Below, piece after piece: positions 14,287 through 32,354 of a stretch of 33,694 nucleotides of DNA. The stretch is from the IMG/VR virus record IMGVR_UViG_3300042567_001187, positions 1 through 33,694 of that record; one strand, given 5' to 3'. The position numbers and the translations under genes are program-made. This stretch comes from a virus. Under the pieces are notes generated by a model that saw only the letters and a list, made by a program, of their open reading frames with translations, was not told the origin of the DNA and ran no database searches. Position 1 is the first letter of the stretch, and the number at the start of each line of letters is the position of its first letter.

Positions 14287-14315
14287 ATTTTACGGGTAGT
14301 AAGGGCTAGCCACAA
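14287..14315 (-). promoter_or_regulatory. Module promoter 1 (leadered, Api92-like operon)
   Basis: Minus strand: TTGTGG, 17-bp spacer CTAGCCCTTACTACCCG, TAAAAT, then GAAGTT. A short 5' UTR with AAGGAG follows. It shows that the module is a promoter and not a translation signal. Confidence 0.75.
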
Positions 14316-14350
14316 CCCCACAACCAACAAAGGAGCAAGTGGTTGTGGGG
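14316..14350 (-). terminator. 11-bp hairpin ending the MoxR-VWA operon
   Basis: CCCCACAACCA (14316-14326) and TGGTTGTGGGG (14340-14350) pair perfectly around 13 nt, just after the VWA stop and directly against the next promoter's -35. It lacks a U-tract, so termination is uncertain; it may insulate the two units. Confidence 0.45.
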
Positions 14351-14358
14351 CGTAGCGG

Positions 14359-15813
14359 TCAGTAAGGAAGTTTCCCACCTCGTGCTTCCCACGCATGCTT
14401 CAACATGTATGGGAAAGGTGCCTTCGGTACCGTCATTCCTTTTGAGAGCGCTCCGAGAAGAGCGATGGTGGCTTCGGCGTTTTCGGTCAGGTGAATCTTC
14501 TTCTCCAAACAGAACGCAGTGCATTGGTTCGCAAGTAGTTCAGAGAATCCTTGGTGAGGACCACAGACTCCACCGTCAGTCATCCAAATGACTGGAGCAG
14601 TTGAGTGCTGGCGACGCTTCACTGCCCATTCAAGCGCAGGGAAGTCAACGCCGTTGCCTTGACCCATCTCGGGCATTTCGTCAACCATACGACCCTTGTC
14701 AGCAAGAATCCAAGCGTTCGGATGACCATCACGAATATCGGAGTACGCAATGACGGTAGCCCCCGGACTTGCTTCAAGAATTCTGCGAACATCATCTTGA
14801 GATAGAGACATTGAACCCGATGCATCAACGCACACGACTCCACCCATTCCTCGTCTCTTGTTGTCAAAGATTCGCTTCTGTGGGTCAGTCATGTATCGGT
14901 GGATACGGCGTGGTGAGCGACCAACATTGGATGCTGTTTTCTTCTTTCCCAAATTACCTTTAGCAATAATAGGAAGTGGCAACTTCTCAATCATTAGTTC
15001 TCCCCAATAAGGAACACTGTTGTCCATTCTGTCGGGAGTAATTGTTTTTAGTTTTTCACGAAACTCAGTTTCTTTTACTTTTACACTTCCGATGTTTGAG
15101 TGTTCACGCTTGCTTTCTTTGTCATCACCTTCGGTACTCATTGAAGAGTCGTCACTTGATTCTGATTCATCTTCCGACGGTGGTTCCATACCAGCGAGAC
15201 GGTCAACCCATTCAGCAAGTTTCTCTGTGTAGATGAATCCAAATGGAGCGAGACCAGTAGAGGCATGCACTTCGGTGCTTGATAAGCGGTGACCAGCCTT
15301 GTTCATTTCTTTCACTGCTCGCTTAGAGATATCAGCAAGCGCAGTACCCCATAAGCGGTTATGTCGGCGTATGCCGTTCAGGAACAACTTGTTACTTGCG
15401 GTACCAGCAGTGGCGACAGCCATGTGTACTGCACCCTTCCAGTCTTCGGTGCAAGCAAGGCGTTCTCCGTCTGCGGTCTCTCCACCGTCAGACAGTTGGT
15501 TCTTCACATCAAAGCCAGCCCTATCGCACAGTAAGTTCACACGCAATTCTTCACACGCCATCATTGCTGGAAGAGTGGCAATCTTTCTGTTCTGCCACTT
15601 CTCCCAATCATTAGCAGGAGAAACTTTTGCATGCATCATTTCGTGCGCTCGGATTACTCTTGCTTGTTCAGTGTCGTGTGCAGGTGCAAGCATCTTGCGT
15701 TCCACGATAGAAGTAGCAGGGATGCCACGGCGAGGTTCGCAATCTTCAACTTGCCAAGCGCCATGCTCGGCGTCGTTACGCCCAAGCCATTCGGGTTCGG
15801 CAATGTGTCTCAT
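14359..15813 (-). CDS. VWA-domain protein with N-terminal metallopeptidase-like HExxH (DUF2201-like)
   Basis: 484 aa. The N-terminal domain (about 1-200) contains H57-E-M-M-H61, an HExxH zinc motif as in the DUF2201_N putative metallopeptidase domain. An acidic Ser-rich linker (about 212-240) follows. The C-terminal VWA domain has the MIDAS motif D330-A-S-G-S334 and WMTDGG (410-415); the usual GGGTD segment reads GNGVD, so one MIDAS Thr is lost. Its start overlaps the stop of the MoxR gene (TAATG). MoxR-VWA pairs act as metal-dependent chaperone or insertase systems; here the pair is phage-borne. The target protein is unknown. Confidence 0.8.
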   Translation of the reverse strand: MRHIAEPEWLGRNDAEHGAWQVEDCEPRRGIPATSIVERKMLAPAHDTEQARVIRAHEMMHAKVSPANDWEKWQNRKIATLPAMMACEELRVNLLCDRAGFDVKNQLSDGGETADGERLACTEDWKGAVHMAVATAGTASNKLFLNGIRRHNRLWGTALADISKRAVKEMNKAGHRLSSTEVHASTGLAPFGFIYTEKLAEWVDRLAGMEPPSEDESESSDDSSMSTEGDDKESKREHSNIGSVKVKETEFREKLKTITPDRMDNSVPYWGELMIEKLPLPIIAKGNLGKKKTASNVGRSPRRIHRYMTDPQKRIFDNKRRGMGGVVCVDASGSMSLSQDDVRRILEASPGATVIAYSDIRDGHPNAWILADKGRMVDEMPEMGQGNGVDFPALEWAVKRRQHSTAPVIWMTDGGVCGPHQGFSELLANQCTAFCLEKKIHLTENAEATIALLGALSKGMTVPKAPFPYMLKHAWEARGGKLPY

Positions 15814-16532
15814 TAGTGAACCTTGTCAATCGCAATGGCGTCCAGTACAGAAGTTGCTCGGTCACCAAAGATAATCTTTGCAGACTTCTCGTCACCTAGT
15901 TGCTTACGCAGTTTGTCAAATGCGTAGAAAGTACGCAATGAGATTCGGCGCTTGCCAGCATCAGCCATACGGACTGCGTACTCACGCAACTCGTACGACA
16001 ACTTCTCAAGCGCACTCGGGTGAGGGGCGTTGATTCGGATACGAACAGGGAATCGGTCAGCGAGCGCCATTGGCAACTCTTCCATATTCTCAATGTTCGT
16101 GGTCATGACTGCAGAGAACCCGTCTTTCGGACGATGGATACGACCAGTCTCGGGATGCTCCCAAGTTGCTGATTCAGGTGAGTCAAGCATCGCAAGCAGA
16201 AGTGCGAACACATCTCCCGACGCCTTGTCAATCTCATCCACGATGAGACGACCACCATTGAGTCCGTTGCCTTCCCAAGCCTTGAGACCAGCACCAGCGA
16301 CCCATGAGAATCTGCCGTTACCGTCAGGCATGAATGCTCCAGTCACATCCATTGAAGTCATGTCTTCTGTGCAGACCAAACGGTGTGCGCCAGCGCCGAC
16401 ATTTCCAAATGTGAGACCAGCAAAGGTCTTGCCAGTTCCAGCAGGTCCAAACAGGATGACTCGGTCAATCCCTGAGTCCATGCAGTCTTTGAGTGTTTGC
16501 CAGCACTCGGGTAGTGTTATTTCTTTTTCCAT
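15813..16532 (-). CDS. MoxR-type AAA+ ATPase
   Basis: 239 aa from ATG 16532 (AAAGGAG upstream). Walker A GPAGTGKT (29-36), Walker B LIVDEI (96-101), sensor-1 TTN (144-146) and LADRF with R160 as arginine-finger candidate are all present. The GAFMPDGNGRFSWVAGAGLKAW insert (about 66-86) is typical of the MoxR/helix-2-insert clade. MoxR ATPases remodel or activate clients together with VWA proteins. It is coupled to the VWA gene and driven by module promoter 2 with a 5' UTR of about 26 nt. Confidence 0.85.
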   Translation of the reverse strand: MEKEITLPECWQTLKDCMDSGIDRVILFGPAGTGKTFAGLTFGNVGAGAHRLVCTEDMTSMDVTGAFMPDGNGRFSWVAGAGLKAWEGNGLNGGRLIVDEIDKASGDVFALLLAMLDSPESATWEHPETGRIHRPKDGFSAVMTTNIENMEELPMALADRFPVRIRINAPHPSALEKLSYELREYAVRMADAGKRRISLRTFYAFDKLRKQLGDEKSAKIIFGDRATSVLDAIAIDKVH

Positions 16533-16564
16533 TTTATTGCTCCTTTGCAATTGGTTATGACTCC

Positions 16565-16593
16565 ATGTTACGGGTAGTAAGCCCTAATCACAA
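16565..16593 (-). promoter_or_regulatory. Module promoter 2 (leadered, MoxR-VWA operon)
   Basis: Minus strand: TTGTGA, spacer TTAGGGCTTACTACCCG, TAACAT, GGAGTC, then a leader of about 26 nt containing AAAGGAG. Puts the ATPase/VWA pair in the same regulon as the small accessory genes. Confidence 0.7.
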
Positions 16594-16600
16594 CATCTCT

Positions 16601-17086
16601 TTACAGATTCTTTTCGGCTTTCTTATCAGCCTCAGCGTCACGCACTTCCCATAGACCCTTCTTGACTTTGCGGAAAGTCGGAGACTCCTGCAAGAACTTC
16701 AAGGTGGTGGGATAAGAGAAGCCTGATACTTCAACCAACTGCTCGGTAGTGAACTGTTCAAATAGGTGGTCTTTTGACCAAGTCAGTAGGGCATCGTACT
16801 TGTCGGCTCGGCGGGGCCTCGGGGTAAGTAGTTCCTCGGGGTCAACGACTTCGTCACAGTATTCAGCGACCACATCAGCGATTACCTCTGTCGGTACGGA
16901 GTAAGTAGATAGGTAGCGAGCAGGATTGCCCGACCCGTTCCAACCCATCAGCGCATAGAGCGCACGAGTATGAGTGGATATCTTGTGTATCTCCTCAAAG
17001 GGCACCTTGAACTTGTCGCCATGTCTTTCTATGGCGTCGTCCCATAGGGAACGATGGACGTCGTTTATCTGTTCTATGGTAATCAT
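16601..17086 (-). CDS. Hypothetical protein with C-terminal winged-helix-like region
   Basis: 161 aa, GAGGAG upstream, ATGA overlap with the previous gene. The N-terminal part is helical (EQINDVHRSLWDDAIERHG). Residues about 112-150 (FTTEQLVEVSGFSYPTTLKFLQESPTFRKVKKGLWEVR) have HTH-wing character, suggesting DNA binding. A Lys-rich tail follows. Family not recognised. Confidence 0.6.
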   Translation of the reverse strand: MITIEQINDVHRSLWDDAIERHGDKFKVPFEEIHKISTHTRALYALMGWNGSGNPARYLSTYSVPTEVIADVVAEYCDEVVDPEELLTPRPRRADKYDALLTWSKDHLFEQFTTEQLVEVSGFSYPTTLKFLQESPTFRKVKKGLWEVRDAEADKKAEKNL

Positions 17087-17253
17087 CTAAATAACTCCTC
17101 TTTGCATCCTATGCACACCCAATGCCCTGGCTCAAAGTCGTAGGGCTTGATGAATGTGAACTCCTGACCATCATCATGAGGTACGCCACATTCGTCGCAC
17201 TCAAGTTCTAAGTCAGATTCAGTAATTGTTTCTAGGTCTTTGTATTCCTTCAT
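17083..17253 (-). CDS. Zinc-ribbon microprotein, leaderless
   Basis: 56 aa, starting MKEYKDLETITESD, with CDECGVPHDD (about 19-28) and CIGCKEE (about 47-53) as knuckles. The ATG is exactly 6 nt after the -10 of module promoter 3, so the transcript should begin at the start codon. The gene is coupled to the winged-helix-like gene by an ATGA overlap. Confidence 0.65.
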   Translation of the reverse strand: MKEYKDLETITESDLELECDECGVPHDDGQEFTFIKPYDFEPGHWVCIGCKEELFR

Positions 17254-17259
17254 GCCTCC

Positions 17260-17288
17260 ATCTTATGGATAGTAAGGGGTACTTCCAA
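17260..17288 (-). promoter_or_regulatory. Module promoter 3 (leaderless)
   Basis: Minus strand: TTGGAA, spacer GTACCCCTTACTATCCA, TAAGAT, GGAGGC, ATG (17253). The GGAGGC looks like a ribosome site but would lie upstream of +1. Confidence 0.75.
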
Positions 17289-17382
17289 CATTCTTAGAAA
17301 AATTTATAAGAAATTTGCGTCGTGACTGGGTGCCCCGGTGTTGTATTATTGTTTCACGAGATTTATTCAGAAGGAAAATATC

Positions 17383-17979: not shown

Positions 17980-18158
17980 TAGATGACTTCCGTGACGTCC
18001 CATGGTCGGTCCCAGCCACTGTCACCGTCTAGGTCTCGTGTCTTGAGTTGTGTATCAGTGAGACGGTCATAGGCTTCTAGTGCACCATCTTCGTCCTCCG
18101 CTTCAACCTCGTATTGGTGATTGATGCTTTCGGTTACCTGAATAATGTATTTCTTCAT
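17979..18158 (-). CDS. Small hypothetical protein, leaderless
   Basis: 59 aa, starting MKKYIIQVTESINHQYEVEA. The strand-turn-strand then helix pattern (AEDEDGALEAYDRL) resembles many tiny phage beta-alpha proteins. The ATG lies exactly 6 nt after the -10 of module promoter 4. TAATG overlap couples it to the next gene. Confidence 0.65.
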   Translation of the reverse strand: MKKYIIQVTESINHQYEVEAEDEDGALEAYDRLTDTQLKTRDLDGDSGWDRPWDVTEVI

Positions 18159-18164
18159 GGCTTC

Positions 18165-18193
18165 ACTCTATAGGTAGTAAGGGTTAAACACAA
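18165..18193 (-). promoter_or_regulatory. Module promoter 4 (leaderless)
   Basis: Minus strand: TTGTGT, spacer TTAACCCTTACTACCTA, TAGAGT, GAAGCC, ATG (18158). Its -35 half overlaps the last codons of the upstream gene. Confidence 0.75.
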
Positions 18194-18441
18194 CCTGCAG
18201 GGTCGTTATTGAGGACGATGTTTTTGCGCTCAACCCAGCGACGCCCAGTTCCGAGCACTGGAGTTACTTCCAAGTCAAGGTGACCGTATCGTCGGCGAGC
18301 CCCGAGAACCATCACATTGACAGTGAGACCCTCTTGCTCAATCGTTCCGTGACAGTTGAGATATGCGTTTAGGTCTAACTTGCCATCTGTGGTGCGGGCT
18401 ACCGCTGTGTCGTTAGTTGAGGGTGTGTCTACAATGTTCAT
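18184..18441 (-). CDS. Hypothetical protein
   Basis: 85 aa with AAAAGGAA upstream. The central part is beta-rich (GTIEQEGLTVNVMVLGARRRYGHLDLEVTPVLGTGRRWVERKNIVL), compatible with a small barrel. It is driven by the most divergent copy of the module promoter, with a 5' UTR of about 22 nt. Family not recognised. Confidence 0.6.
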   Translation of the reverse strand: MNIVDTPSTNDTAVARTTDGKLDLNAYLNCHGTIEQEGLTVNVMVLGARRRYGHLDLEVTPVLGTGRRWVERKNIVLNNDPAGCV

Positions 18442-18469
18442 TTTTTCCTTTTAGTTGATTGTGGTTTGT

Positions 18470-18498
18470 AGGGTACTGGTAGAAAGCCCCCGTAACAA
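18470..18498 (-). promoter_or_regulatory. Module promoter 5 (divergent copy, leadered)
   Basis: Minus strand: TTGTTA, 17-bp spacer ending CTTTCTACCAG, TACCCT. The spacing is kept, but the -10 and spacer core are degraded. It may be weak or differently regulated. Confidence 0.45.
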
Positions 18499-18545
18499 CC
18501 TGTTGCCAGATGTCACGAGGGCTCCCGGGGCTTCGCCCTGAGTCT

Positions 18546-19029: not shown

Positions 19030-19176
19030 TCAGTTTCTTTCTGTGTGTTGTGTGATTAGTAATGACAGAACGGCAACACGCTGTTGCTGATAATCATCTT
19101 CGTCAATGGCGTTAGTGCCTCTTAGGTATTCCAAGTGGTCAAGTTCCATGATTGCTTGTTCCATGTATTCGTTCAT
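19030..19176 (-). CDS. Small helical protein, leaderless
   Basis: 48 aa, starting MNEYMEQAIMELDHLEYLRG and ending ITQHTERN; it looks fully helical. The ATG lies 6 nt after the -10 of module promoter 6. It is the first gene of a two-gene operon with the MGLD-family gene. Confidence 0.65.
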   Translation of the reverse strand: MNEYMEQAIMELDHLEYLRGTNAIDEDDYQQQRVAVLSLLITQHTERN

Positions 19177-19182
19177 GATTAC

Positions 19183-19211
19183 ATACTATGGGTAGTAAGG
19201 CACAAACACAA
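19183..19211 (-). promoter_or_regulatory. Module promoter 6 (leaderless)
   Basis: Minus strand: TTGTGT, spacer TTGTGCCTTACTACCCA, TAGTAT, GTAATC, ATG (19176). Confidence 0.7.
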
Positions 19212-19314
19212 CCTGACGCAAAACTTATCCTGCGAGTCCCGGCGCACACCCCAAAAGGGGGCGGGGTCGCTACCTGTCGGTGCGTGTCCCACCCCCCAAT
19301 TCGCGGGGAGGCGA

Positions 19315-19734: not shown

Positions 19735-19764
19735 TTCGTTTCTCCTTTGTTGTGGTGTAACTCC

Positions 19765-19793
19765 ACTCTAGGGGTAGTAAGGGACACTTCCAA
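19765..19793 (-). promoter_or_regulatory. Module promoter 7 (leadered; divergent pair, left arm)
   Basis: Minus strand: TTGGAA, spacer GTGTCCCTTACTACCCC, TAGAGT, GGAGTT, then a leader with AAAGGAG. It stands back to back with module promoter 8, 24 bp between the -35s. Confidence 0.75.
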
Positions 19794-19817
19794 CCTTTAG
19801 ATAGATTTGTTTAGAGG

Positions 19818-19846
19818 TTGGTATTGGGGGTTACTAACCGTAATAT
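19818..19846 (+). promoter_or_regulatory. Module promoter 8 (leaderless; divergent pair, right arm)
   Basis: TTGGTA, spacer TTGGGGGTTACTAACCG, TAATAT, GGAGTT, ATG (19853). With promoter 7 it forms an inverted repeat (CCAACCT ... AGGTTGG) at the point where gene direction switches. Confidence 0.75.
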
Positions 19847-19852
19847 GGAGTT

Positions 19853-20278
19853 ATGAATATCTCACAGTTAGAACTAATAAGCATGGTCAAAGAACTGGAC
19901 AACCTCTTACCCGTTCCAGACAACCCAGAGGACTACTCAACGCCTGTGGATTTTGGAACTACTGGCGTTGTTGTCATGTGCGATAGCGGAACTCCGCTGG
20001 TCATTAGCACATTTGACGAACCAACAGAGATGTTTGGTAATCAGGAAATATCTATTTTTGCTAATGGCTTTGGTCATGTTTTTGTAGTCGCCTACGGTGG
20101 TGCTATGAATGTTGATTCAGAAGAAGCCCATGTCGCTCGTGTTATCTTCGGCTTAACCTGTGACGGACTACAAACTTCGCTCATGCGTTTCTTGGACACA
20201 GACGAAGTTATGTGTGATGAGAACGGTGAGGCTGGAGATGGAAGTATCCAAACAGAACTCCGAAAGTTGTTCGGCTAG
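19853..20278 (+). CDS. Hypothetical protein, leaderless
   Basis: 141 aa. Beta-rich core (GTTGVVVMCDSGTPLVISTFDEPTEMFGNQEISIFANGFGHVFVVAYGG) followed by a helix (EEAHVARVIFGLTCDGLQTSLMRFL) and an acidic tail. No domain recognised. Start codon at the predicted +1 of module promoter 8. A copy of the dispersed repeat begins 2 nt after its stop. Confidence 0.65.
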   Translation: MNISQLELISMVKELDNLLPVPDNPEDYSTPVDFGTTGVVVMCDSGTPLVISTFDEPTEMFGNQEISIFANGFGHVFVVAYGGAMNVDSEEAHVARVIFGLTCDGLQTSLMRFLDTDEVMCDENGEAGDGSIQTELRKLFG

Positions 20279-20479: not shown

Positions 20480-20487
20480 ACCACAGG

Positions 20488-20516
20488 TTGTTGTTACCCC
20501 TTACTACCCGTAGAGT
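20488..20516 (+). promoter_or_regulatory. Module promoter 9 (leaderless)
   Basis: TTGTTG, spacer TTACCCCTTACTACCCG, TAGAGT, GAAGGC, ATG (20523). Consensus spacer. Confidence 0.8.
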
Positions 20517-20522
20517 GAAGGC

Positions 20523-20696
20523 ATGAGTGATTACGAAACCTACATAACACAAACCCACCTAGACATTCGCACGGCAATCATTGCCTACAAGGCGTTGCCT
20601 GACACAATTCCCAACCAAGTCAAGAAGGACATCTGGCAAGCCCTCGTGGAAGCCCTGAACTTGGTTCAGAACGAAATGGCAAAGATTCCCTCGTAA
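20523..20696 (+). CDS. Small helical protein, leaderless
   Basis: 57 aa, starting MSDYETYITQTHLDIRTAII and ending QNEMAKIPS. Predominantly helical, no cysteines, no TM. It is a single-gene unit between two module promoters. Function unknown. Confidence 0.65.
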   Translation: MSDYETYITQTHLDIRTAIIAYKALPDTIPNQVKKDIWQALVEALNLVQNEMAKIPS

Positions 20697-20700
20697 GAGG

Positions 20701-20729
20701 TTGTCTTTACCCCCTACTATCCATAGAAT
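20701..20729 (+). promoter_or_regulatory. Module promoter 10 (leaderless)
   Basis: TTGTCT, spacer TTACCCCCTACTATCCA, TAGAAT, GAAGTT, ATG (20736). Confidence 0.8.
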
Positions 20730-20735
20730 GAAGTT

Positions 20736-21032
20736 ATGAGCAATACAATTACTTACGAAAACACATCAATCGGACAATGCCTGACCTACGCCAACGACGA
20801 GTGGGCATGGGTTATCGGAGACGCAATAGCGTGTACTGTCAAGAACAGCACCGCCATTGAGTACTGGTCGTACGACACCGTGCGTAACGAACTACTGGTG
20901 AAGTACAAGTCGTCACCAACTGGCTACACCTACTACGGCGTTCCTTTCTCAACCATGTTTGCACTTATGTCTGCTGACAGTCTCGGTGCCTTTATTGCAA
21001 AAGAAATCAAGCCCAACTTCTCCATTGCGTGA
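20736..21032 (+). CDS. KTSC-domain protein, leaderless
   Basis: 98 aa. Residues about 45-95 (YDTVRNELLVKYKSSPTGYTYYGVPFSTMFALMSADSLGAFIAKEIKPNF) match the KTSC domain: a short beta meander, YxYxGVP, then xxADSxGxF and IKPNF. KTSC domains are small modules of unknown function found alone or next to nucleic-acid enzymes in phages and bacteria. The N-terminal 40 residues are unique. Single-gene unit under module promoter 10. Confidence 0.75.
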   Translation: MSNTITYENTSIGQCLTYANDEWAWVIGDAIACTVKNSTAIEYWSYDTVRNELLVKYKSSPTGYTYYGVPFSTMFALMSADSLGAFIAKEIKPNFSIA

Positions 21033-21034
21033 AG

Positions 21035-21063
21035 TTGGCATTACTGCTTACTACCGATAGGAT
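21035..21063 (+). promoter_or_regulatory. Module promoter 11 (leaderless)
   Basis: TTGGCA, spacer TTACTGCTTACTACCGA, TAGGAT, AAGAGT, ATG (21070). Confidence 0.75.
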
Positions 21064-21069
21064 AAGAGT

Positions 21070-21477
21070 ATGAATGTAACACCAATCTCGGTTGCCGAGA
21101 AAATAATCAAGGACACAGAACACCAAATGAATAACGCCGTACTGTACGGAGTTACCGAAGATGGTTCCAACTTTGAGTTGGGTCGTGCGCCCGATATCTA
21201 CGACCTGCTTGACAGCGAGTACCCAAGCAAGGGAATTGTCGGATTAGCCGTACACACAACTGGCTGGGCTGCGCCACTCAACGAAAACGGCGAAGTAGAT
21301 GGGCAACCAAGCAAACACCCTGAACGCAGACGAGTCGCCATTGTGACCGTCATGACAGCCGAAGGCATGGGTTCCGCCCTTTCGTTCGCTGACGAGCCTG
21401 ACGATATCATCACAGACTCAAGCGGAACAGGGCAACTCTCCGACGCACTCAAAGAGTGTCTATTGAGACTGTCGTGA
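21070..21477 (+). CDS. Hypothetical protein, leaderless
   Basis: 135 aa. LDSEYPSKGIVGLAVHTTGWAAPLNENGEVDGQPSKHPERRRVAIVTVM shows a conserved-looking HTTGWAAP segment followed by a basic PERRR turn and a beta strand; the tail is acidic then helical. The pattern recurs in actinophage hypothetical proteins as far as I recall, without known role. GTGA overlap with the next gene. Confidence 0.6.
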   Translation: MNVTPISVAEKIIKDTEHQMNNAVLYGVTEDGSNFELGRAPDIYDLLDSEYPSKGIVGLAVHTTGWAAPLNENGEVDGQPSKHPERRRVAIVTVMTAEGMGSALSFADEPDDIITDSSGTGQLSDALKECLLRLS

Positions 21478-21767
21478 ACAACTGGCAAGGTGGTTGGGCT
21501 ATCGTCAAAGACGACGACGGCACCACGCCTCGCTACATATCTTTCGGTGAACGCCTTGAAGGCCCCGGCACGGATAGTTTCGGAGTTGCGGAAGACAAAA
21601 TCTTTTGCTATTCCAACTTTGACGAAGTGATGCAATTTTATAATGGTCACGCTGATGGTTGGCGCATGGTTGCATGGTTGCCCGTAGAAGTCGGGGCTCA
21701 TGTCGCATCGCCCTCACTAACTATCCCAATGCAACTAATAGACACTCAAGGAATTATTAACACCTAG
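21474..21767 (+). CDS. Hypothetical protein
   Basis: 97 aa from GTG 21474 (GTGA overlap); GTG 21456 would add six residues. Alpha/beta, acidic, with paired aromatic residues (WQGGWAIVKDDDG, RYISFGERLEGPG, MQFYNGHADGWRMVAWLPVEVG). No domain recognised. Confidence 0.6.
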   Translation: MNNWQGGWAIVKDDDGTTPRYISFGERLEGPGTDSFGVAEDKIFCYSNFDEVMQFYNGHADGWRMVAWLPVEVGAHVASPSLTIPMQLIDTQGIINT

Positions 21768-21768
21768 G

Positions 21769-21797
21769 TTGTTTCTACCCTTTACTATCCGTAGAAT
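21769..21797 (+). promoter_or_regulatory. Module promoter 12 (leaderless)
   Basis: TTGTTT, spacer CTACCCTTTACTATCCG, TAGAAT, GAAGTT, ATG (21804). Confidence 0.8.
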
Positions 21798-21803
21798 GAA
21801 GTT

Positions 21804-22004
21804 ATGAATACAGACATAACAAAGACCCCCTTTTCAGAACTAGACCACGAAGTGCAGGACGCTTATGTCCTAGATGCGTTCAATGCCCTAGTAAATAGTG
21901 GTGGAGAAGTGCCGTACGGATTAGTGACAGGTGACGATGGTGACCATTGGGATTACCAGCCAGCGTGTGACTTGGCAGAGCAGAACTACAACGACGAAGA
22001 TTAA
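21804..22004 (+). CDS. Small acidic protein, leaderless
   Basis: 66 aa, very acidic (LDHEVQDAYVLDAF, TGDDGDHWDY, EQNYNDED). Net negative charge and size are like phage DNA-mimic or host-interaction proteins, but this is only suggestive. Single-gene unit. Confidence 0.6.
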   Translation: MNTDITKTPFSELDHEVQDAYVLDAFNALVNSGGEVPYGLVTGDDGDHWDYQPACDLAEQNYNDED

Positions 22005-22005
22005 G

Positions 22006-22034: not shown

Positions 22035-22040
22035 GAAGTT

Positions 22041-24307: not shown

Positions 24308-24313
24308 GAATGT

Positions 24314-24651: not shown

Positions 24652-24655
24652 AGTC

Positions 24656-24904
24656 ATGGATATAAAAGAAATAAGACCCGAACTACTGGCGTACTACAAA
24701 ACCTATGTAGGTAAGCGAGTACAACTAATCAGTTGCTCTGACCCGTACACGAAACTTGTTCGTGGCGATGAGGGCATTGTTACTTCCGTAGATTCGTTCG
24801 GAACTGTTCATGTGAACTGGGACAACGGCTCTAGTCTCGGACTTGTGTACCGAGAAGATAACTTCTCTTTGGTTGAGCCTCTTCCGCCACCGTCTGACGA
24901 TTAG
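24656..24904 (+). CDS. DUF4314-like protein, leaderless
   Basis: 82 aa. VGKRVQLISCSDPYTKLVRGDEGIVTSVDSFGTVHVNWDNGSSLGLVYREDNF matches DUF4314: GKRV, DPYT, L..G..G.V, GT.HV.WDNG.SLGL, D.F. This small beta-barrel family is common on actinobacterial mobile elements and phages and its role is unknown. The last codons (EPLPPPSDD) are made from a copy of the dispersed repeat. Confidence 0.85.
   Translation: MDIKEIRPELLAYYKTYVGKRVQLISCSDPYTKLVRGDEGIVTSVDSFGTVHVNWDNGSSLGLVYREDNFSLVEPLPPPSDD
24879..24904 (+). repeat. Dispersed TTCCGCCACCGT repeat, copy 8 (full length, in-frame)
   Basis: CTCTTCCGCCACCGT followed by CTGACGATTAG. It encodes LPPPSDD and supplies the stop codon TAG of the DUF4314-like gene. 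Confidence 0.75.
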
Positions 24905-24973: not shown

Positions 24974-24995
24974 TTTTCCACAACCCTGTGGATAA
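24974..24995. promoter_or_regulatory. Inverted DnaA-box pair
   Basis: TTTTCCACA (24974-24982, near-consensus) and TGTGGATAA (24987-24995, perfect) face each other across 4 bp. They end 18 bp upstream of the -35 of module promoter 18. Confidence 0.6.
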
Positions 24996-25013
24996 GTTTA
25001 TTTGTGCATGAGG

Positions 25014-25042
25014 TTGTCTTTACCCTTTACTACCCATAAAGT
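25014..25042 (+). promoter_or_regulatory. Module promoter 18 (leadered)
   Basis: TTGTCT, spacer TTACCCTTTACTACCCA, TAAAGT, GAAGTA, then a 25-nt leader with AGAGGAAAG before ATG 25074. Confidence 0.75.
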
Positions 25043-25073
25043 GAAGTATCAAACAACACAGAAAGAGGAAAGT

Positions 25074-25665: not shown

Positions 25666-25728
25666 ACCCGGGGCACCCACGTGCGACGCCCCTAATGCGA
25701 GAACTTCTGAAATAATCCGCAATAAAAG

Positions 25729-25757
25729 TTGTGATTACCCCTTACTACCCATATCAT
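25729..25757 (+). promoter_or_regulatory. Module promoter 19 (leaderless)
   Basis: TTGTGA, spacer TTACCCCTTACTACCCA, TATCAT, GGAGTT, ATG (25764). Confidence 0.8.
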
Positions 25758-25763
25758 GGAGTT

Positions 25764-25997
25764 ATGAAAGAAAAATACACAGACACTTTTCAGGGCTTAC
25801 TTGACATGGAGTACTACTCCATCGGCGTAACTGGCGCTGAGGCGCTATGCAATATGCTTGGCGACTTCAACGATGGTAGCCTCACCGAGTTTCTTGCCGA
25901 GCAGGAAGTCGCTGAAGCCGAGTTCCTGATGACCGTGAACCGTCTCGCTGTGAAGTGGGCTAGCGAGAACGTACTGAACGTGATGGTGAAAGGGTGA
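25764..25997 (+). CDS. Hypothetical helical protein, leaderless
   Basis: 77 aa from ATG 25764, set by module promoter 19; a longer frame from 25731 would begin inside the promoter. Acidic and helical (FLAEQEVAEAEFLMTVNRLAVKWASENVLNVMV). No recognised family. GTGA overlap with the next gene. Confidence 0.6.
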   Translation: MKEKYTDTFQGLLDMEYYSIGVTGAEALCNMLGDFNDGSLTEFLAEQEVAEAEFLMTVNRLAVKWASENVLNVMVKG

Positions 25998-26455
25998 CGC
26001 TCATCTGCACTAACTGCGGTGTGGGGGCCCCGGCTACTCAGCAACAAGGCAACTTTATTGACTACGGCTGGTCGCTAAACAACTGCTCTCTAGGTCACTA
26101 CGGTGGCTTCTCTGACAACTTCCCATGTGATGAGAGAAATCTGTCTACTGACAAACAGTACGCACACTTATGCCATGACTGCTGCGTGAAGATGCTTGAA
26201 GCACTTCCGGGGCTGGCTAAGTACCTGTTTCCCAACGGCGGTGGTCACCCGAACGTAAATGGCTTTCCAAACAGCGGTAGGAACACAAGTGTTGACGGCA
26301 CTGGCATAGACATTCCCTCGTGCTGTGAGTACGCATGGACTTGGAGTGGAGAGTGCGAGGGTTGCAATGACCCAATCACTTACTTCGGAGCCCCGAATGG
26401 CGGATGGCGCAAACGAGAGTGCCTTAGATGCAAGGTGAAACAAATTCCAGAATGA
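25994..26455 (+). CDS. Multi-Cys zinc-binding protein
   Basis: 153 aa, GTG start (GTGA overlap). Cys pairs occur throughout: CTNCG at the N-terminus, CHDCC (about 60-64), SCCEY, CEGCND (about 119-124) and CLRC (about 143-146). Two or three zinc sites are likely. A Gly/Asn-rich middle (FPNGGGHPNVNGFPNSGRN) is probably flexible. Function not recognised; nucleic-acid binding is plausible. Confidence 0.6.
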   Translation: MTLICTNCGVGAPATQQQGNFIDYGWSLNNCSLGHYGGFSDNFPCDERNLSTDKQYAHLCHDCCVKMLEALPGLAKYLFPNGGGHPNVNGFPNSGRNTSVDGTGIDIPSCCEYAWTWSGECEGCNDPITYFGAPNGGWRKRECLRCKVKQIPE

Positions 26456-26457
26456 GG

Positions 26458-26486
26458 TTGTTATTACCCGTTACTACCCGTAAGAT
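26458..26486 (+). promoter_or_regulatory. Module promoter 20 (leaderless mini-ORF)
   Basis: TTGTTA, spacer TTACCCGTTACTACCCG, TAAGAT, AGAAGT, ATG (26493). The ATG opens only a 3-codon frame. Confidence 0.75.
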
Positions 26487-26492
26487 AGAAGT

Positions 26493-26504
26493 ATGAAGTT
26501 GTGA
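26493..26504 (+). CDS. Leaderless 3-codon mini-ORF (Met-Lys-Leu-stop)
   Basis: ATG AAG TTG TGA placed exactly at the predicted +1 of module promoter 20. 52 nt later a 24-residue membrane microprotein starts with its own ribosome site. It may be a relic of a deleted leaderless gene or a regulatory leader peptide. Confidence 0.35.
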   Translation: MKL

Positions 26505-26835: not shown

Positions 26836-26852
26836 TAAATCTCAACGAGAGG

Positions 26853-26881
26853 TTGTTGTTTTGACTTCTTATCGGTATTAT
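26853..26881 (+). promoter_or_regulatory. Module promoter 21 (leaderless, altered spacer)
   Basis: TTGTTG, 17-bp spacer TTTTGACTTCTTATCGG, TATTAT, GGACTT, ATG (26888). The CCCC/ACTACC core is changed while geometry is retained. Confidence 0.65.
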
Positions 26882-26887
26882 GGACTT

Positions 26888-27199
26888 ATGAACAACATTA
26901 CTATGACAGGAACAAACCTCATGGTTGATGGAAAGGTTGTTGCATCTATCAGCAACTTCCCATCTCTCCGTGATGCTTTGTTTGACAAATTGACTCGTAC
27001 CGAAGCCGTGTATCTAGCAGTAGCCCTAATGGGTGAGGCTCGCACAGTTGCCGTAGCAGAACTGCTTGACATGGACAAGGCTAACGCAACCAAGCGTCTG
27101 CTGTCTTTGGAAGAAGAAGGCAGAGTGGAAGTCATTGACGACTGCAACACACTCGGTAAGCCGGGGCGTCCTTCACGAGTCTGGGCAATCGCCGACTAA
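26888..27199 (+). CDS. Winged-helix regulator, leaderless
   Basis: 103 aa from ATG 26888, set by the promoter. LTRTEAVYLAVALMGEARTVAVAELLDMDKANATKRLLSLEEEGRVEVIDDCNTLGKPGRPSRVWAI is a MarR/ArsR-like winged helix with recognition helix KANATKRLLSLEEEG and a basic wing. It is a candidate repressor or activator for the module and is itself driven by an altered copy. Confidence 0.7.
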   Translation: MNNITMTGTNLMVDGKVVASISNFPSLRDALFDKLTRTEAVYLAVALMGEARTVAVAELLDMDKANATKRLLSLEEEGRVEVIDDCNTLGKPGRPSRVWAIAD

Positions 27200-27227: not shown

Positions 27228-27290
27228 AAACACTTAATTCTTGTGACGCAAGGAAACAAAAACCACTAAAACCGTCGGAATAATCCGATG

Positions 27291-27319
27291 TTGCTTTTAC
27301 CCTTTACTACCGATAGACT
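27291..27319 (+). promoter_or_regulatory. Module promoter 22 (leaderless)
   Basis: TTGCTT, spacer TTACCCTTTACTACCGA, TAGACT, GGAATT, ATG (27326). Confidence 0.75.
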
Positions 27320-27325
27320 GGAATT

Positions 27326-27493
27326 ATGAAAGATGAACTAACAGGAAACCCCTATGTCTGCGAACACGCCAGATATGTCCGCCTCTACGACCTCACCGGG
27401 GCTCAAGCCGCAGGCGTACTGCTGTGCGAAGACGAGTCTGAGCGTGACCAAGCCTGCTTCCGCTTCATTGACATCAACGCCCGTGCTCGGTAG
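27326..27493 (+). CDS. Small hypothetical protein, leaderless
   Basis: 55 aa, starting MKDELTGNPYVCEHARYVRL and ending FIDINARAR. Three Cys (VCEHA, LLCED, ACFRF). A short alpha/beta fold is likely. Single-gene unit under module promoter 22; no recognised family. Confidence 0.6.
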   Translation: MKDELTGNPYVCEHARYVRLYDLTGAQAAGVLLCEDESERDQACFRFIDINARAR

Positions 27494-27537: not shown

Positions 27538-27888
27538 ATGAAGTACAGACACGACAGACCAATGAAAAACATGAGCAACAGCGAGTTTATTACTTTTGTG
27601 CTTGAACTACCAGACGAGAAGGTGGATGCTGGGCTCATGGACGAGTGTTTTCATCGCTTGGTTGAGTTGGAGGGTCAGCGTTTTGATTTTCATCAGGCAT
27701 TACATTTTGTTATAGATTGCGTAGAGGATAAGTCCCGACTGGACGGACTTGACCTAGTTGAGTTGTGTGTCATTGCAGGGTCAGACGGAAAGCCTCGTGA
27801 TAACAGCGAAAGTAACCCAGACCTTGAACTTGAAGAATGTGAGCCGTTCCTTCGTTCTTGTGGGGCTTACGAAGATGACGAAGATTAG
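27538..27888 (+). CDS. Hypothetical acidic protein
   Basis: 116 aa. Helical (NMSNSEFITFVLELPDEKVDAGLMDECFHRLVELEGQRFDFHQALHFVIDCVED) with an acidic C-terminus (LELEECEPFLRSCGAYEDDED). The N-terminus is basic. The start sits about 7 nt after a -10-like TAATGT, consistent with leaderless expression. A downstream ATG at 27562 is also possible. Function unknown. Confidence 0.55.
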   Translation: MKYRHDRPMKNMSNSEFITFVLELPDEKVDAGLMDECFHRLVELEGQRFDFHQALHFVIDCVEDKSRLDGLDLVELCVIAGSDGKPRDNSESNPDLELEECEPFLRSCGAYEDDED

Positions 27889-27889
27889 G

Positions 27890-27918
27890 TTGTTTTTTTG
27901 ACCTCTTATGGATAGATT
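27890..27918 (+). promoter_or_regulatory. Module promoter 23 (leaderless, altered spacer)
   Basis: TTGTTT, 17-bp spacer TTTTGACCTCTTATGGA, TAGATT, GGTGTT, ATG (27925). Its TTTTGACxTCTTAT spacer matches promoter 21, so these two form a sub-family. Confidence 0.65.
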
Positions 27919-27924
27919 GGTGTT

Positions 27925-28128
27925 ATGAGTAATCCTCCACTTCCATCCCGTCTGTCTTGCCTGCGCTTTGCGTTGGCTTCCGTCCTTGTGCGCTACGCCT
28001 TCCGTGTGTGCCCTCTCATCTTCGCTCCTCGCTTCATTGAGGAGACGGATGAAATAAGTCAGTACAAAGGCGAACTGTGGGCTGACAACGACTACATCAG
28101 TAACGACGACTGGAGTTTCCACAACTGA
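27925..28128 (+). CDS. Hypothetical protein, leaderless
   Basis: 67 aa. A basic/hydrophobic N-terminal half (PPLPSRLSCLRFALASVLVRYAFRVCPLIFAPRF), possibly membrane-associated, and an acidic C-terminal half (EETDEISQYKGELWADNDYISNDDW). A terminator follows 15 nt after the stop. Confidence 0.55.
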   Translation: MSNPPLPSRLSCLRFALASVLVRYAFRVCPLIFAPRFIEETDEISQYKGELWADNDYISNDDWSFHN

Positions 28129-28441: not shown

Positions 28442-28479
28442 AAACGCAGAATACCACAAACTTTATTTTTGCTGCAAGG

Positions 28480-28508
28480 TTGTTTTTACCTTTTATTACC
28501 GCTATGAT
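28480..28508 (+). promoter_or_regulatory. Module promoter 24 (leaderless mini-ORF)
   Basis: TTGTTT, spacer TTACCTTTTATTACCGC, TATGAT, GAAGTT, ATG (28515). The ATG opens a 5-codon frame containing the next gene's ribosome site. Confidence 0.7.
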
Positions 28509-28514
28509 GAAGTT

Positions 28515-28532
28515 ATGAATGGGGGGAGGTGA
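28515..28532 (+). CDS. Leaderless 5-codon mini-ORF (Met-Asn-Gly-Gly-Arg-stop)
   Basis: ATG AAT GGG GGG AGG TGA at the predicted +1. Its GGGGGGAGGTGA is the Shine-Dalgarno sequence of the next gene (ATG 28535), 2 nt after the mini-ORF stop. Translation of the mini-ORF would cover or hand over to that site, a neat coupling arrangement. Confidence 0.4.
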   Translation: MNGGR

Positions 28533-28534
28533 AA

Positions 28535-28657
28535 ATGATTACAACCACGACTTGCTGGTTTTGCGGTGTGCTATGCCCAATCCAAGGCTTTGTGGAACTG
28601 CCCAACGGCGGTACCGAGCCTGCAGGGACTTGCCCTGACTGCGAAGCAGAACAATAA
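28535..28657 (+). CDS. Zinc-ribbon microprotein
   Basis: 40 aa, starting MITTTTCWFCGVLCPIQGF and ending CPDCEAEQ. CWFCGxxC and CPDC form a zinc ribbon. An unusually strong Shine-Dalgarno sequence (GGAGGTGA) is set 4-8 nt upstream, inside the mini-ORF. Terminator after the stop. Confidence 0.6.
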   Translation: MITTTTCWFCGVLCPIQGFVELPNGGTEPAGTCPDCEAEQ

Positions 28658-28953: not shown

Positions 28954-28976
28954 CTGAAAAAAAGTTTGGGGTGAGG

Positions 28977-29005
28977 TTGTTTCTACCCTTTACTATCTAT
29001 ATATT
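28977..29005 (+). promoter_or_regulatory. Module promoter 25 (leaderless, next to parS)
   Basis: TTGTTT, spacer CTACCCTTTACTATCTA, TATATT, GGAGTT, ATG (29012). ParB spreading from parS could repress it. Confidence 0.75.
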
Positions 29006-29011
29006 GGAGTT

Positions 29012-29224
29012 ATGGATAAGCAACAAGTAGCGGAAATCGCAAGACTGGCAGAAGAACTAAGAGGAGCCCTCAAGGCCCTGACTGGTCCGAGTGGAAAGAT
29101 GACATCATGGTGGTTCGGAAAACCAGAGGACTGGCCCGAGGGTCTGCCGTGGACCGACGAGCAAATCGCAGCAGCAAGTAACGCTCTCGGGTCGCTGACC
29201 CTAGACGAAGAATACGGGGACTGA
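29012..29224 (+). CDS. Small hypothetical protein, leaderless, downstream of parS
   Basis: 70 aa. A helix (DKQQVAEIARLAEELRGALKAL) followed by a Trp-rich middle (SWWFGKPEDWPEGLPWTDEQIAAASNAL) and an acidic end. No ParB or CTPase motif, so it is not a partition protein. Single-gene unit; +1 predicted at the ATG. Confidence 0.65.
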   Translation: MDKQQVAEIARLAEELRGALKALTGPSGKMTSWWFGKPEDWPEGLPWTDEQIAAASNALGSLTLDEEYGD

Positions 29225-29226
29225 GG

Positions 29227-29255
29227 TTGTTATTACCTCTTACTACCGATAGGTT
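29227..29255 (+). promoter_or_regulatory. Module promoter 26 (leaderless)
   Basis: TTGTTA, spacer TTACCTCTTACTACCGA, TAGGTT, GGAGTT, ATG (29262). It starts 2 nt after the previous stop. Confidence 0.75.
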
Positions 29256-29261
29256 GGAGTT

Positions 29262-29558
29262 ATGAAGAAAATAGCCAAAGACATCAAGAAACTTGCCGAG
29301 GCTCTGGGCATCACGACAGACGAACTGTTGAAGGAGATGGAAGTCGGTTCGCCGACGAAACCCTTCACGGTCTCAATCTCGTTCGGTCGCCTGAGCCAGA
29401 TGGAGAGTTTCGCCGAGGAATACCTAGCCAAGACGGGGCTTGCCCTGTACCACGCCGACGCACTTGACTACGAGTACAAGGGTCGTGCGCCAGGAAATAC
29501 ATTCGTGGTTCGTAACCCGAACGACACGCACAAGCCTGAGGACATGAGAGTTTTCTGA
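29262..29558 (+). CDS. Hypothetical protein, leaderless
   Basis: 98 aa. KKIAKDIKKLAEALGITTDELLKEMEVGSP resembles a short HTH-like N-terminus (LAEALGITTDELL). The rest is alpha/beta (FTVSISFGRLSQMESFAEEYLAKTGLALYHADALDYEYKG). Possibly DNA-binding, but the similarity is weak. Confidence 0.6.
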   Translation: MKKIAKDIKKLAEALGITTDELLKEMEVGSPTKPFTVSISFGRLSQMESFAEEYLAKTGLALYHADALDYEYKGRAPGNTFVVRNPNDTHKPEDMRVF

Positions 29559-29679: not shown

Positions 29680-29700
29680 TGTGGATAAACCTGTGGATAA
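29680..29700 (+). promoter_or_regulatory. Tandem DnaA-box pair, 12 bp apart
   Basis: TGTGGATAA at 29680-29688 and 29692-29700. Same orientation and 12-bp spacing as the pair at 23786-23806, and 16 bp before the -35 of module promoter 27. Confidence 0.7.
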
Positions 29701-29716
29701 CTTTTTTGGTTGCAGG

Positions 29717-29745
29717 TTGGAACTACCCCTTACTACCGATAGAGT
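29717..29745 (+). promoter_or_regulatory. Module promoter 27 (leaderless)
   Basis: TTGGAA, spacer CTACCCCTTACTACCGA, TAGAGT, GAAGGT, ATG (29752). Confidence 0.8.
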
Positions 29746-29751
29746 GAAGGT

Positions 29752-29844
29752 ATGAATGAATACACAGTCCCCGAGATGCCCGACCATTGCCATTGCAGTA
29801 GCAACGGCGAGTGCAATTACTGTCTCAAACTGATAGAGGAATGA
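29752..29844 (+). CDS. 30-residue Cys/His microprotein, leaderless
   Basis: Starts MNEYTVPEMPDHCHCSSNGE and ends CNYCLKLIEE. HCHC and CNYC make a complete four-ligand zinc site in 30 residues. The start lies at the predicted +1. It overlaps the next gene and is probably a metal-binding microprotein. Confidence 0.6.
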   Translation: MNEYTVPEMPDHCHCSSNGECNYCLKLIEE

Positions 29845-30390: not shown

Positions 30391-30510
30391 ATGACAAATG
30401 AACCAGACGACGGGGCTCCGAAAGAGCCGGAAGAGCCGAAGGAAGAACCGCAACCACGCCCTCGCTTTCTTCAGAGAAAACGACGCACGGGTTGTCGTAC
30501 CTGCTTCTAA
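30391..30510 (+). CDS. 39-residue Pro/Glu-rich microprotein
   Basis: Starts MTNEPDDGAPKEPEEPKEEP and ends with a basic, Cys-containing tail (RKRRTGCRTCF). TATTAT lies exactly 6 nt before the ATG, consistent with leaderless expression, but there is no -35 or module spacer. Disordered acidic N-terminus plus basic Cys tail; function unknown. Confidence 0.5.
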   Translation: MTNEPDDGAPKEPEEPKEEPQPRPRFLQRKRRTGCRTCF

Positions 30511-30527
30511 CCTGTAACCTGCAAGGC

Positions 30528-30857
30528 ATGGTAGGAAAAGACGCAAAAAACTTTGACCCGACTGATGTCATGATGAGAACCAAGAGACCCCCGACACCCG
30601 CTCAGGTGCAAGAGCATCTTGAAGCGATGGGCGAGACGACCCTTCTGATGGACGGCTTTGGGGACGCACTCATTGGTTTCTCACAACGCATAAACGAACC
30701 GTTCCTTGCTGTGTACTCATGGGAGAAGATGATGGAAGTCTGTATGGTTCGTGACGGTATGGACGAAGAAGAAGCAGAAGAGTACATCAGTTACAACTGC
30801 ACCGGGGCTTGGGTGGGCGAGCAAACTCCAATTATTGTTATGCCCGTGTTGTACTGA
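30528..30857 (+). CDS. Widespread small phage protein of unknown function
   Basis: 109 aa from ATG 30528; the start is uncertain (TTG 30492 and ATG 30570 are in frame). EHLEAMGETTLLMDGFGDALIGFSQRINEPFLAVYSWEKMMEVCMVRDGMDEEEAEEYISYNCTGAWVGEQTPIIV is a highly recognisable stretch shared by many phage hypothetical proteins (DGFxDALIG, AVYxxExMM, RDGMxxEEAxEYxxYNxxGAxxG). Its role is not known. TGATG overlap with the next gene. Confidence 0.75.
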   Translation: MVGKDAKNFDPTDVMMRTKRPPTPAQVQEHLEAMGETTLLMDGFGDALIGFSQRINEPFLAVYSWEKMMEVCMVRDGMDEEEAEEYISYNCTGAWVGEQTPIIVMPVLY

Positions 30858-31030: not shown

Positions 31031-31062
31031 TTCCGCCGACTAGATAAATCTTTCTCACCATG

Positions 31063-31091
31063 TTGGTATTAGTGTTTACTACCTGTAAAGT
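31063..31091 (+). promoter_or_regulatory. Module promoter 28 (leaderless)
   Basis: TTGGTA, spacer TTAGTGTTTACTACCTG, TAAAGT, GTAACT, ATG (31098). Confidence 0.7.
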
Positions 31092-31097
31092 GTAACT

Positions 31098-31265
31098 ATG
31101 GAAGTACAAGAAACACGTAAACCAAAAGCATGGCGTAACGGCAGATACATTTACTGCATGACTCATAGTCAGACACAGTGCTACGACATTGAACTCCTCT
31201 ATGGAGACGACCCTGCGATAGACGGTGGACGTAAGTGCGATTGGTGCAAGGGGAGACTCAAGTGA
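31098..31265 (+). CDS. Zinc-binding small protein, leaderless
   Basis: 55 aa, starting MEVQETRKPKAWRNGRYIYC and ending CDWCKGRLK. CMTHSQTQC and CDWCKG form a zinc-finger pattern; the N-terminus is basic. GTGA overlap with the next gene. Start placed at the predicted +1. Confidence 0.6.
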   Translation: MEVQETRKPKAWRNGRYIYCMTHSQTQCYDIELLYGDDPAIDGGRKCDWCKGRLK

Positions 31266-32000: not shown

Positions 32001-32003
32001 AGG

Positions 32004-32032
32004 TTGCAGTCGCCTTCTACTATCCGTATAAT
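32004..32032 (+). promoter_or_regulatory. Module promoter 29 (drives a noncoding RNA)
   Basis: TTGCAG, spacer TCGCCTTCTACTATCCG, a perfect TATAAT, GGAAGT. No ATG follows; the predicted +1 (32039) opens a hairpin. The best -10 of all copies. Confidence 0.75.
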
Positions 32033-32038
32033 GGAAGT

Positions 32039-32142
32039 AGCCAGCCAACTGGCGGTGGTTAATCGGATTCGGTAAGACCACACAATTAGTTTCGCTAACG
32101 GGAAATGGGAAATAAACCTCAGCCTTCGGGTTGGGGTTTTTT
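32039..32142 (+). ncRNA. Small structured RNA, about 104 nt
   Basis: It begins at the predicted +1 of module promoter 29 and ends at a UUCG-capped intrinsic terminator (32115-32142). Hairpins: GCCAG-CCAA-CTGGC near the 5' end, GTGGT pairing with ACCAC, TTAG-TTTCG-CTAA, then the terminator stem AACCTCAGCC / GGTTGGGGTT (two G-U pairs) with six U. The only frame (ATG 32106) runs through the terminator. Likely a regulatory RNA; class unrecognised. Confidence 0.65.
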
Positions 32143-32212
32143 CTTGTTTTATCGCACGTTCCCGCTGCAGCCCCGTCGTTGTCCTCTTGCGTCTAGACGG
32201 TTACTCCGAATT

Positions 32213-32238
32213 CCTTTCCGCCACCGTTAGTAGATTAG
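32213..32238 (+). repeat. Dispersed TTCCGCCACCGT repeat, copy 11 (full length)
   Basis: CCTTTCCGCCACCGT followed by TAGTAGATTAG, in the gap between the small RNA and the LysM gene. Confidence 0.75.
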
Positions 32239-32299
32239 GGATGATATTTTCTGGCTGCCGTAATCCGGGACTTCGGCTGATAAGAATCTACAAAAAGGC

Positions 32300-32308
32300 T
32301 GTGGATAA
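32300..32308 (+). promoter_or_regulatory. Single DnaA box
   Basis: A perfect TGTGGATAA, 17 bp upstream of the -35 of module promoter 30. Same orientation and distance as the tandem pairs at 23.8 and 29.7 kb. Confidence 0.6.
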
Positions 32309-32325
32309 CTTTCTTTTGTTTGGGG

Positions 32326-32354
32326 TTGCTTTTACCTTTTATTACAGATAGAGT
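32326..32354 (+). promoter_or_regulatory. Module promoter 30 (leaderless)
   Basis: TTGCTT, spacer TTACCTTTTATTACAGA, TAGAGT, GAAGAT, ATG (32361). Confidence 0.75.

Follow-up and report, generated by a model that had tools for sequence, protein, structure and literature searches.

Many middle promoters of phage T4, in which the -35 element is weak or absent, are served by a phage factor acting with the host sigma factor (the MotA/AsiA system). In cluster K mycobacteriophages, extended start-associated sequences (ESAS) combine SigA-like -35 and -10 hexamers, 17-18 bp apart, with a conserved inverted repeat that has no known reader; about seven copies are present in Adephagia, upstream of start-associated sequences (SAS) that carry a Shine-Dalgarno (SD) word, and these transcripts are hence leadered (PMC3203893, PMC11373665). 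Cluster A mycobacteriophages have 20-30 asymmetric stoperators per genome, which are oriented with transcription and whose sequence tracks the repressor by subcluster (PMC6550527, PMC9283540), and leaderless translation is established in mycobacteria (PMC4633059). Here, we describe an array of about 30 copies of a 40-bp promoter module in the 33,694-bp IMG/VR virus record IMGVR_UViG_3300042567_001187 (this whole stretch is called the window below). A constant frame appears to set the transcription start on the start codon of single genes, and the recognition word inside the promoter spacer is swapped between phage lineages in all promoters, as if the controlling protein and its targets had changed in step. 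The whole analysis is based on sequence, and the relatives compared are fragmentary metagenomic contigs.

Using a 40-bp position weight matrix (PWM) derived from the spacer word of an earlier sequence-only reading of this DNA, 29 copies were found in the window between 14278 and 32363, on both strands and with scores of 29.5-57.5 bits. The next best site scored -3.5 bits, 100 dinucleotide-model shuffles of the window gave a mean of 0.01 matches above 11 bits, and the scan found no copy left of 14.28 kb. The 30 copies claimed before are reached with one at 30490-30530 (+), which has 7 nt instead of 6 between the -10 and the ATG and whose counterpart in the sister contig G001 has the exact spacing. 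A degenerate, leadered 31st copy, at about 18461-18500 (-) before the gene at 18184-18441, has a low PWM score and was read by eye. The described distribution, on both strands from 14.3 kb, was also found, and in G001 the module region spans about 85.0-106.5 kb, apart from one weak reverse match at 82.8 kb, and the structural genes are likewise free of them. All PWM matches in the window carry the complete promoter frame. A generic promoter scan showed no enrichment, because the -35 is non-consensus.

In the information content of the copies, GTTG is invariant and preceded by A or G, a strong spacer word extends up to the -10, and TAnnnT, G at -6, A at -4 and ATG follow. The -35 had been given as TTGnnn, but its general form is a strongly conserved AGGTTG(T); of the proposed shared element GRAGTT, the G at -6 and usually the A at -4 are kept in relatives and the rest is not. 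The start slot is occupied by ATG in 24 window copies: 22 of these open open reading frames (ORFs) of 30-141 codons, the same number as counted earlier, and two open the mini-ORFs noted before, with 3 codons (26493) and 5 codons (28515). Four copies are leadered (slots 14280, 16558, 19758 and 25049), and all four have a separate SD-like word and a start 16-26 nt downstream; the earlier reading had five copies with a short 5' untranslated region, and the shifted copy is here counted separately. The remaining copy (slot 32039) starts a predicted, terminator-ended RNA of about 105 nt, in agreement with the earlier reading.

To follow the module beyond the window, relatives of the AAA ATPase were screened for repeats in register with start codons, and a scan of a virus collection in which any spacer sequence was allowed brought further lineages to light. 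One contig (G003) is the same phage as the window (99.9% over 22.5 kb), and G001 (118 kb) and G002 are its sisters at 86-88% identity; among the other contigs, G007 and G008 have identical module statistics and are also near-duplicates. The capsid of G001 is about 47% identical to those of Gordonia and Brevibacterium phages, and a WhiB gene is present in 9 of 10 contigs, features which place the phage, as judged from these genes, among the actinobacteriophages. Contig-by-contig matrices gave one frame in 18 contigs, with AGGTTG at -38 to -33, G at -6 and ATG at +1. Each scored contig has 13-38 copies, except an 8.5-kb fragment (G013) with 5, and shuffles gave 0-0.05.

The phasing with start codons was exact in 248 of 357 modules of the non-redundant contigs (counted without G002, G003, G007 and G013), and any other nearby offset accounted for at most 17. 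SD-like words were found at 6/326 leaderless starts versus 62/106 leadered starts (counts that include those four contigs), a contrast that is partly forced by the motif itself. The sequence thus has a -10 about 6-7 nt before the ATG, the ATG at +1 and no SD, as in leaderless sigma-A promoters, and the exact slot together with the SD contrast supports the earlier proposal that +1 probably falls on the start codon. TTGACA was found in none of the 326 ATG modules, the same four contigs being included in the -35 counts. In more distant members of the family (G028/G030), leaderless promoters carry TTGACA in 38 of 59 cases and have no conserved spacer core. The loss of the consensus -35 together with the gain of a core is expected of an activator-dependent promoter, and no integrase or resolvase was found in seven contigs; this favours positive control without proving it. 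As a side observation, a single contig, G030 (L228-L230), has about 46 leaderless promoters of the form TTGACA-17-TAnnnT-6/7 nt-ATG, which suggests that one promoter per gene may be a general strategy of this phage family.

About ten core types share the frame of AGGTTG, 17-bp spacer, -10, G at -6 and ATG, and differ in a type-specific core of 9-11 bp in the spacer adjoining the -10 (CTTACTACC, CTTACAAGG, CTTACAAGC, CTAGTAAT, CTAATAAC and others). The core words are TTACCCCTTACTACCCG in type 1 (the window and G001-G003), TTnGTACCTACTACCGA in type 2 (G007/G008), TTnGTCCTTACTACCGA in type 3 (G042), CTTACAAGG with CATAAT in type 4 (G009/G011), CTTACAAGC with CATAAT in type 5 (G013/G043), CCTAGTAATnGA in type 6 (G012), CCTAATAACGGA in type 7 (G044), CCTAATAAGCC in type 8 (G047) and TTATAACCGA in type 9 (G045/G046), and type 10 is a further core type in G039/G040. 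The core was replaced while orthologous genes kept the module and its ATG. Among 311 module-opened ORFs, three orthologous genes begin at a module in eight core types, and in every case the core is that of the type in question; examples are the DUF3846 gene starting at 23,138 (module 23101-23140, +; 121 codons) and the 77-codon ORF behind the module at 25727-25766 (+). Other orthologous genes keep it in five or six core types, such as the 141-codon ORF behind 22004-22043 (+), kept with other cores in types 1-6; all three window copies are leaderless. This replacement in concert across orthologous promoters supports the dedicated spacer reader that had been suggested. A separate observation was made in types 4 and 5, where the orthologue of 18184-18441 is preceded by a module whose core, TTATnCCTrATA, departs from that of the others in those phages (L189 about 7802-7842 in G011, L185 about 16546-16586 in G009 and L199 about 4181-4221 in G043); this gene is perhaps regulated separately.

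We consider it on balance probable that these are activator-dependent leaderless promoters whose spacer core is read by a trans-acting factor. Each module would be a complete single-gene promoter for the host sigma-A RNA polymerase (RNAP), and the constant frame (AGGTTG, 17-bp spacer, -10 and G at -6) would put +1 on the A of the ATG, from which a leaderless mRNA is proposed to follow. With a -35 that has no ACA, the promoter would rely on a factor that reads the 9-11-bp core (about -23 to -13) and either recruits the polymerase or stabilises it at about 30 promoters simultaneously. The most likely source of this factor is the phage itself, since phage lineages differ in their core and, within a lineage, every promoter changes along with the rest. 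We infer in this way the transcription start at the ATG, the positive control and the phage origin of the reader; a repressor or a host reader seems to us less likely than an activator or sigma-A cofactor encoded by the phage. A more specific proposal, in which a small phage-encoded sigma-A cofactor governs tens of single-gene leaderless promoters by reading the word directly upstream of the -10 and word and reader have been switched jointly many times to give orthogonal codes, is put forward tentatively, as a conjecture somewhat short of probable. If true, it would be a form of sigma appropriation distinct from MotA-like, sigma-factor and repressor systems, and would provide a natural series of mutually distinct promoter codes within one phage family.

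Several results, besides the forced part of the SD contrast, weigh against this picture. Among the 13-19 copies in types 9 and 10, only 6-9 have ATG at the slot; the type-10 sequence at the -10 is TTCaCT, in which the expected A at -11 is missing; and in types 4-5 the -10 begins with C. A plain sigma-A reading fits less well where the -10 is odd (types 10 and 4-5), and the simple sigma-A reading may fail in some lineages (types 9 and 10). When co-variation with the core was examined over all orthologous groups, the best correlation (r = 0.62) was below the permutation 95% of maxima (0.83). Finally, the site in the spacer could equally be an operator.

That alternative, in which a phage repressor binds the spacer and silences about 30 promoters and the lineage cores are immunity-type specificities, is in our judgement unlikely, although a site between -35 and -10 that is mostly asymmetric, lineage-specific and present in 20-30 copies along transcription is what it would predict, cluster A sites of similar number co-vary with their repressor (PMC6550527, PMC9283540), and the authors of the Adephagia work propose repression at ESAS promoters. 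Repression would leave the loss of the -35 ACA unexplained, and the core-less relatives keep TTGACA. In addition, no integrase, resolvase or other serine recombinase was found in seven incomplete contigs of up to 132 kb, the families being detected in control genomes, and among repressor-like genes none was seen whose recognition helix varies. If the reader were instead a regulator or alternative sigma factor of the host, the differing cores would reflect hosts with differing versions. CtrA sites do cluster in promoters of Alphaproteobacteria phages (PMC9437464), and in some module promoters DnaA boxes of the host type recur at set distances; but types 4 and 5 are close relatives, with many proteins 70-90% identical, and differ in core, and we regard a host reader as distinctly improbable.

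The two remaining explanations dispense with a promoter or with a function. Cluster K SAS, which act in translation, are also repeats at start codons, and the module has a GRAG word. However, GRAG lies 2-3 nt from the ATG, too close for a ribosome site, and is not conserved in other lineages; the four leadered copies have their own separate SD, with a start 16-26 nt downstream, and the conserved bases are mostly at -38 to -7, so that a purely translational role is very hard to sustain. Duplicated or gene-converted repeats without a common function would account for the high copy number within one region, but variable bases are interleaved with conserved ones inside each copy: the weakest positions between AGGTTG and the core have 0.1-0.5 bit, whereas frame and core mostly have 1.5-2 bits (G011, G043). 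Gene conversion would homogenise core and flanking bases alike; as the bases beside the core vary freely, repeat homogenisation gives no explanation, and one trans-acting reader per type does. In every lineage, the core changes also affect the same set of orthologous promoters. We infer that a shared trans-acting reader must have imposed selection on each individual site, and we give functionless duplication almost no credence.

For the reader itself, the four candidates named in the sequence-only reading were all dropped. WhiB (8790; given there as 8859) has DNA-contact helices that are invariant across core types, and the same holds for the HA-HTH protein (12157), which direct tblastn recovers from almost every relative and whose recognition helix does not vary. 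The helix-turn-helix (HTH) protein at 22830 occurs only in type 2 and in type 1 without G001, with weak partial matches elsewhere. No type-9 counterpart of the winged-helix protein at 26888 was found, and its helix hardly differs among types 1-5. Two further proteins, the winged helix at 16601 and a MarR-like protein at 5902, were rejected as their recognition helices are near-invariant across core types. A partial-correlation screen of all orthologous groups gave nothing significant after multiple testing. A phage sigma factor (region 2, PF04542) was not found in 10 incomplete contigs, with 10/14 control genomes positive; the beta-type subunit of multisubunit RNAP (PF00562) was not found in 7 contigs and was present in all controls; and a search for single-subunit RNAP gave no match in the controls. 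A weak candidate for the core reader is the fast-evolving Cys-rich protein encoded at 25994-26455 (+), which is restricted to core types 1-9. Between types 4 and 5 it is the best outlier, with 88% identity within type and 48% across, but its divergence does not follow core similarity overall: types 1 and 3 share only 36%, though most of the core is common to both. Its AF2 model has low confidence (pLDDT 67) and gave no fold match.

The other window copies were located by the PWM as follows. On the reverse strand are a leadered copy at 14278-14317 (SD AAGGAG before the ATG of 13647-14264), a leadered copy before the AAA ATPase gene at 16556-16595 (SD AAAGGAG), leaderless copies at 17251-17290, 18156-18195 and 19174-19213 (ORFs of 56, 59 and 48 codons), and a leadered copy at 19756-19795 (SD AAAGGAG), which forms a divergent pair with 19816-19855. 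The latter and all others are on the forward strand. Leaderless copies open ORFs of 141 codons (19816-19855), 57 codons (20486-20525), 98 codons (20699-20738), 135 codons (21033-21072), 66 codons (21767-21806), 54 codons (23822-23861), 56 codons (24277-24316), 82 codons (24619-24658), 55 codons (27289-27328), 70 codons (28975-29014), 98 codons (29225-29264), 30 codons (29715-29754), 55 codons (31061-31100) and 87 codons (32324-32363). Two leaderless copies with a divergent core precede the winged-helix gene 26888-27199 (26851-26890) and a 67-codon ORF (27888-27927), and the copy at 25012-25051 is leadered with SD AGAGGA. The 3-codon mini-ORF is opened by 26456-26495 and the 5-codon one by 28478-28517, where GGGGAGGTGAAAATG follows in a re-initiation layout. 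Leaderless mini-ORFs of 5-8 codons that contain an SD and overlap or abut the next ATG (ATGAATGGGGGGAGGTGAAAATG) are seen at 28515-28540 in the window and at module starts of G039, which suggests translational coupling.

The copy at 32002-32041 starts the predicted small RNA at 32039-32143 (+), which ends in a strong intrinsic terminator (stem at 32114-32139). Predicted module-driven RNA loci with intrinsic terminators occur in several lineages (also L103 about 7982-8183, L182, L189, L198 and L199) and include at least two RNA types; one predicted RNA of about 190 nt is almost identical between types 1 and 3 despite the differing promoter core. In an Rfam search of these loci, no family reached the cut-off.

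Other repeated elements accompany the array. The DnaA-box word TGTGGATAA has six copies in the window and none elsewhere in it, all 60-62 or 72-73 nt upstream of module starts, in the same orientation and about one helical turn apart: two at 23786-23806 (+; starts 23786 and 23798, 73 and 61 nt upstream of the ATG at 23859), one at 24987-24995 (+; 62 nt upstream of the slot at 25049), two at 29680-29700 (+; starts 29680 and 29692, 72 and 60 nt upstream of the ATG at 29752) and one at 32300-32308 (+; 61 nt upstream of the ATG at 32361). The word is also present in G039/G040, where another family of start-linked elements, with more than 20 copies, was observed (L192-L194 in G039, L215-L216 in G040), usually with TGTGGATAA at -50, CAACTAA (G039) or GAACTAA (G040) at -33, then ACCGATA and ATG. 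With a -10-like TA as close as 9 nt to the ATG, this family does not fit the leaderless sigma-A geometry. A further repeat, CTTTCCGCCACCGT, followed by GATTAG in many copies, is found at 10777, 11186, 12063, 13033, 17683, 20282, 23648, 24881, 27204, 29592 and 32215 and also in relatives. It keeps a single orientation along the window though genes switch strand, and in the right arm the next module follows it at a distance of 120-260 nt. It is possibly a DNA-level, replication-oriented element.

Among isolated phages, we found no DNA match to window positions 8001-30000, no convincing match to the 41-nt module consensus and, by tblastn, no match to the HA-HTH protein. The structural relatives Cantare, Gray and GMA6 have no module array in the stretches examined. 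The register scan detects fixed-register elements only: it did not pick up the SAS known from Anaya, which lie at varying distances from the ATG. In bacterial genomes the module pattern gave only four single, unrelated sites, and the module is not described in the limited set of literature searched.

The joint change in specificity of a regulator and dozens of sites is an open question in regulatory evolution. Here, about ten outcomes are seen at one set of orthologous promoters within a single phage family, all else being constant, and the evolutionary path is therefore directly comparable. Each gene of the region would be an independently promoted unit, which would aid gene shuffling between phages, and a promoter set is at hand for leaderless expression in Actinobacteria.

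Compared with the described systems, the module is like the ESAS and SAS of cluster K in being an actinobacteriophage repeat at non-structural gene starts (PMC3203893, PMC11373665). It has the promoter hexamers and 17-bp spacing of an ESAS, but about 30 copies, a mostly asymmetric spacer core, a predicted +1 on the ATG and core replacement from one lineage to another; the type-1 core is asymmetric and is followed by no SAS, and we found neither the 17-bp imperfect inverted repeat upstream of an SAS nor the GGGATAGGAGCCC-like word with an SD 3-9 nt before the start. Stoperators lie mostly away from promoters and block elongation, whereas the module core is fixed in the promoter spacer, the PWM matches of the window are not sites inside transcribed regions away from promoters, and the module phages (7 contigs) yielded no integrase. 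Phage promoters with CtrA sites similarly concentrate many sites of one regulator (PMC9437464), but there the host reader is known and the motif is one, whereas the module motif changes between close phage relatives. The MotA box of T4 replaces the -35 region; the module keeps AGGTTG, and its extra element abuts the -10. Leaderless promoters share the placement of the -10 that makes +1 the start codon, to which the module adds a regulon-wide recognition word; the parts of those reports consulted describe no common spacer core (PMC12340547; PMC4633059). As far as sequence can tell, the module unites an ESAS-like start-linked promoter and a stoperator-like lineage-specific word in a fixed 40-bp leaderless unit, and we would place it between start-associated sequences and co-evolving phage operators.

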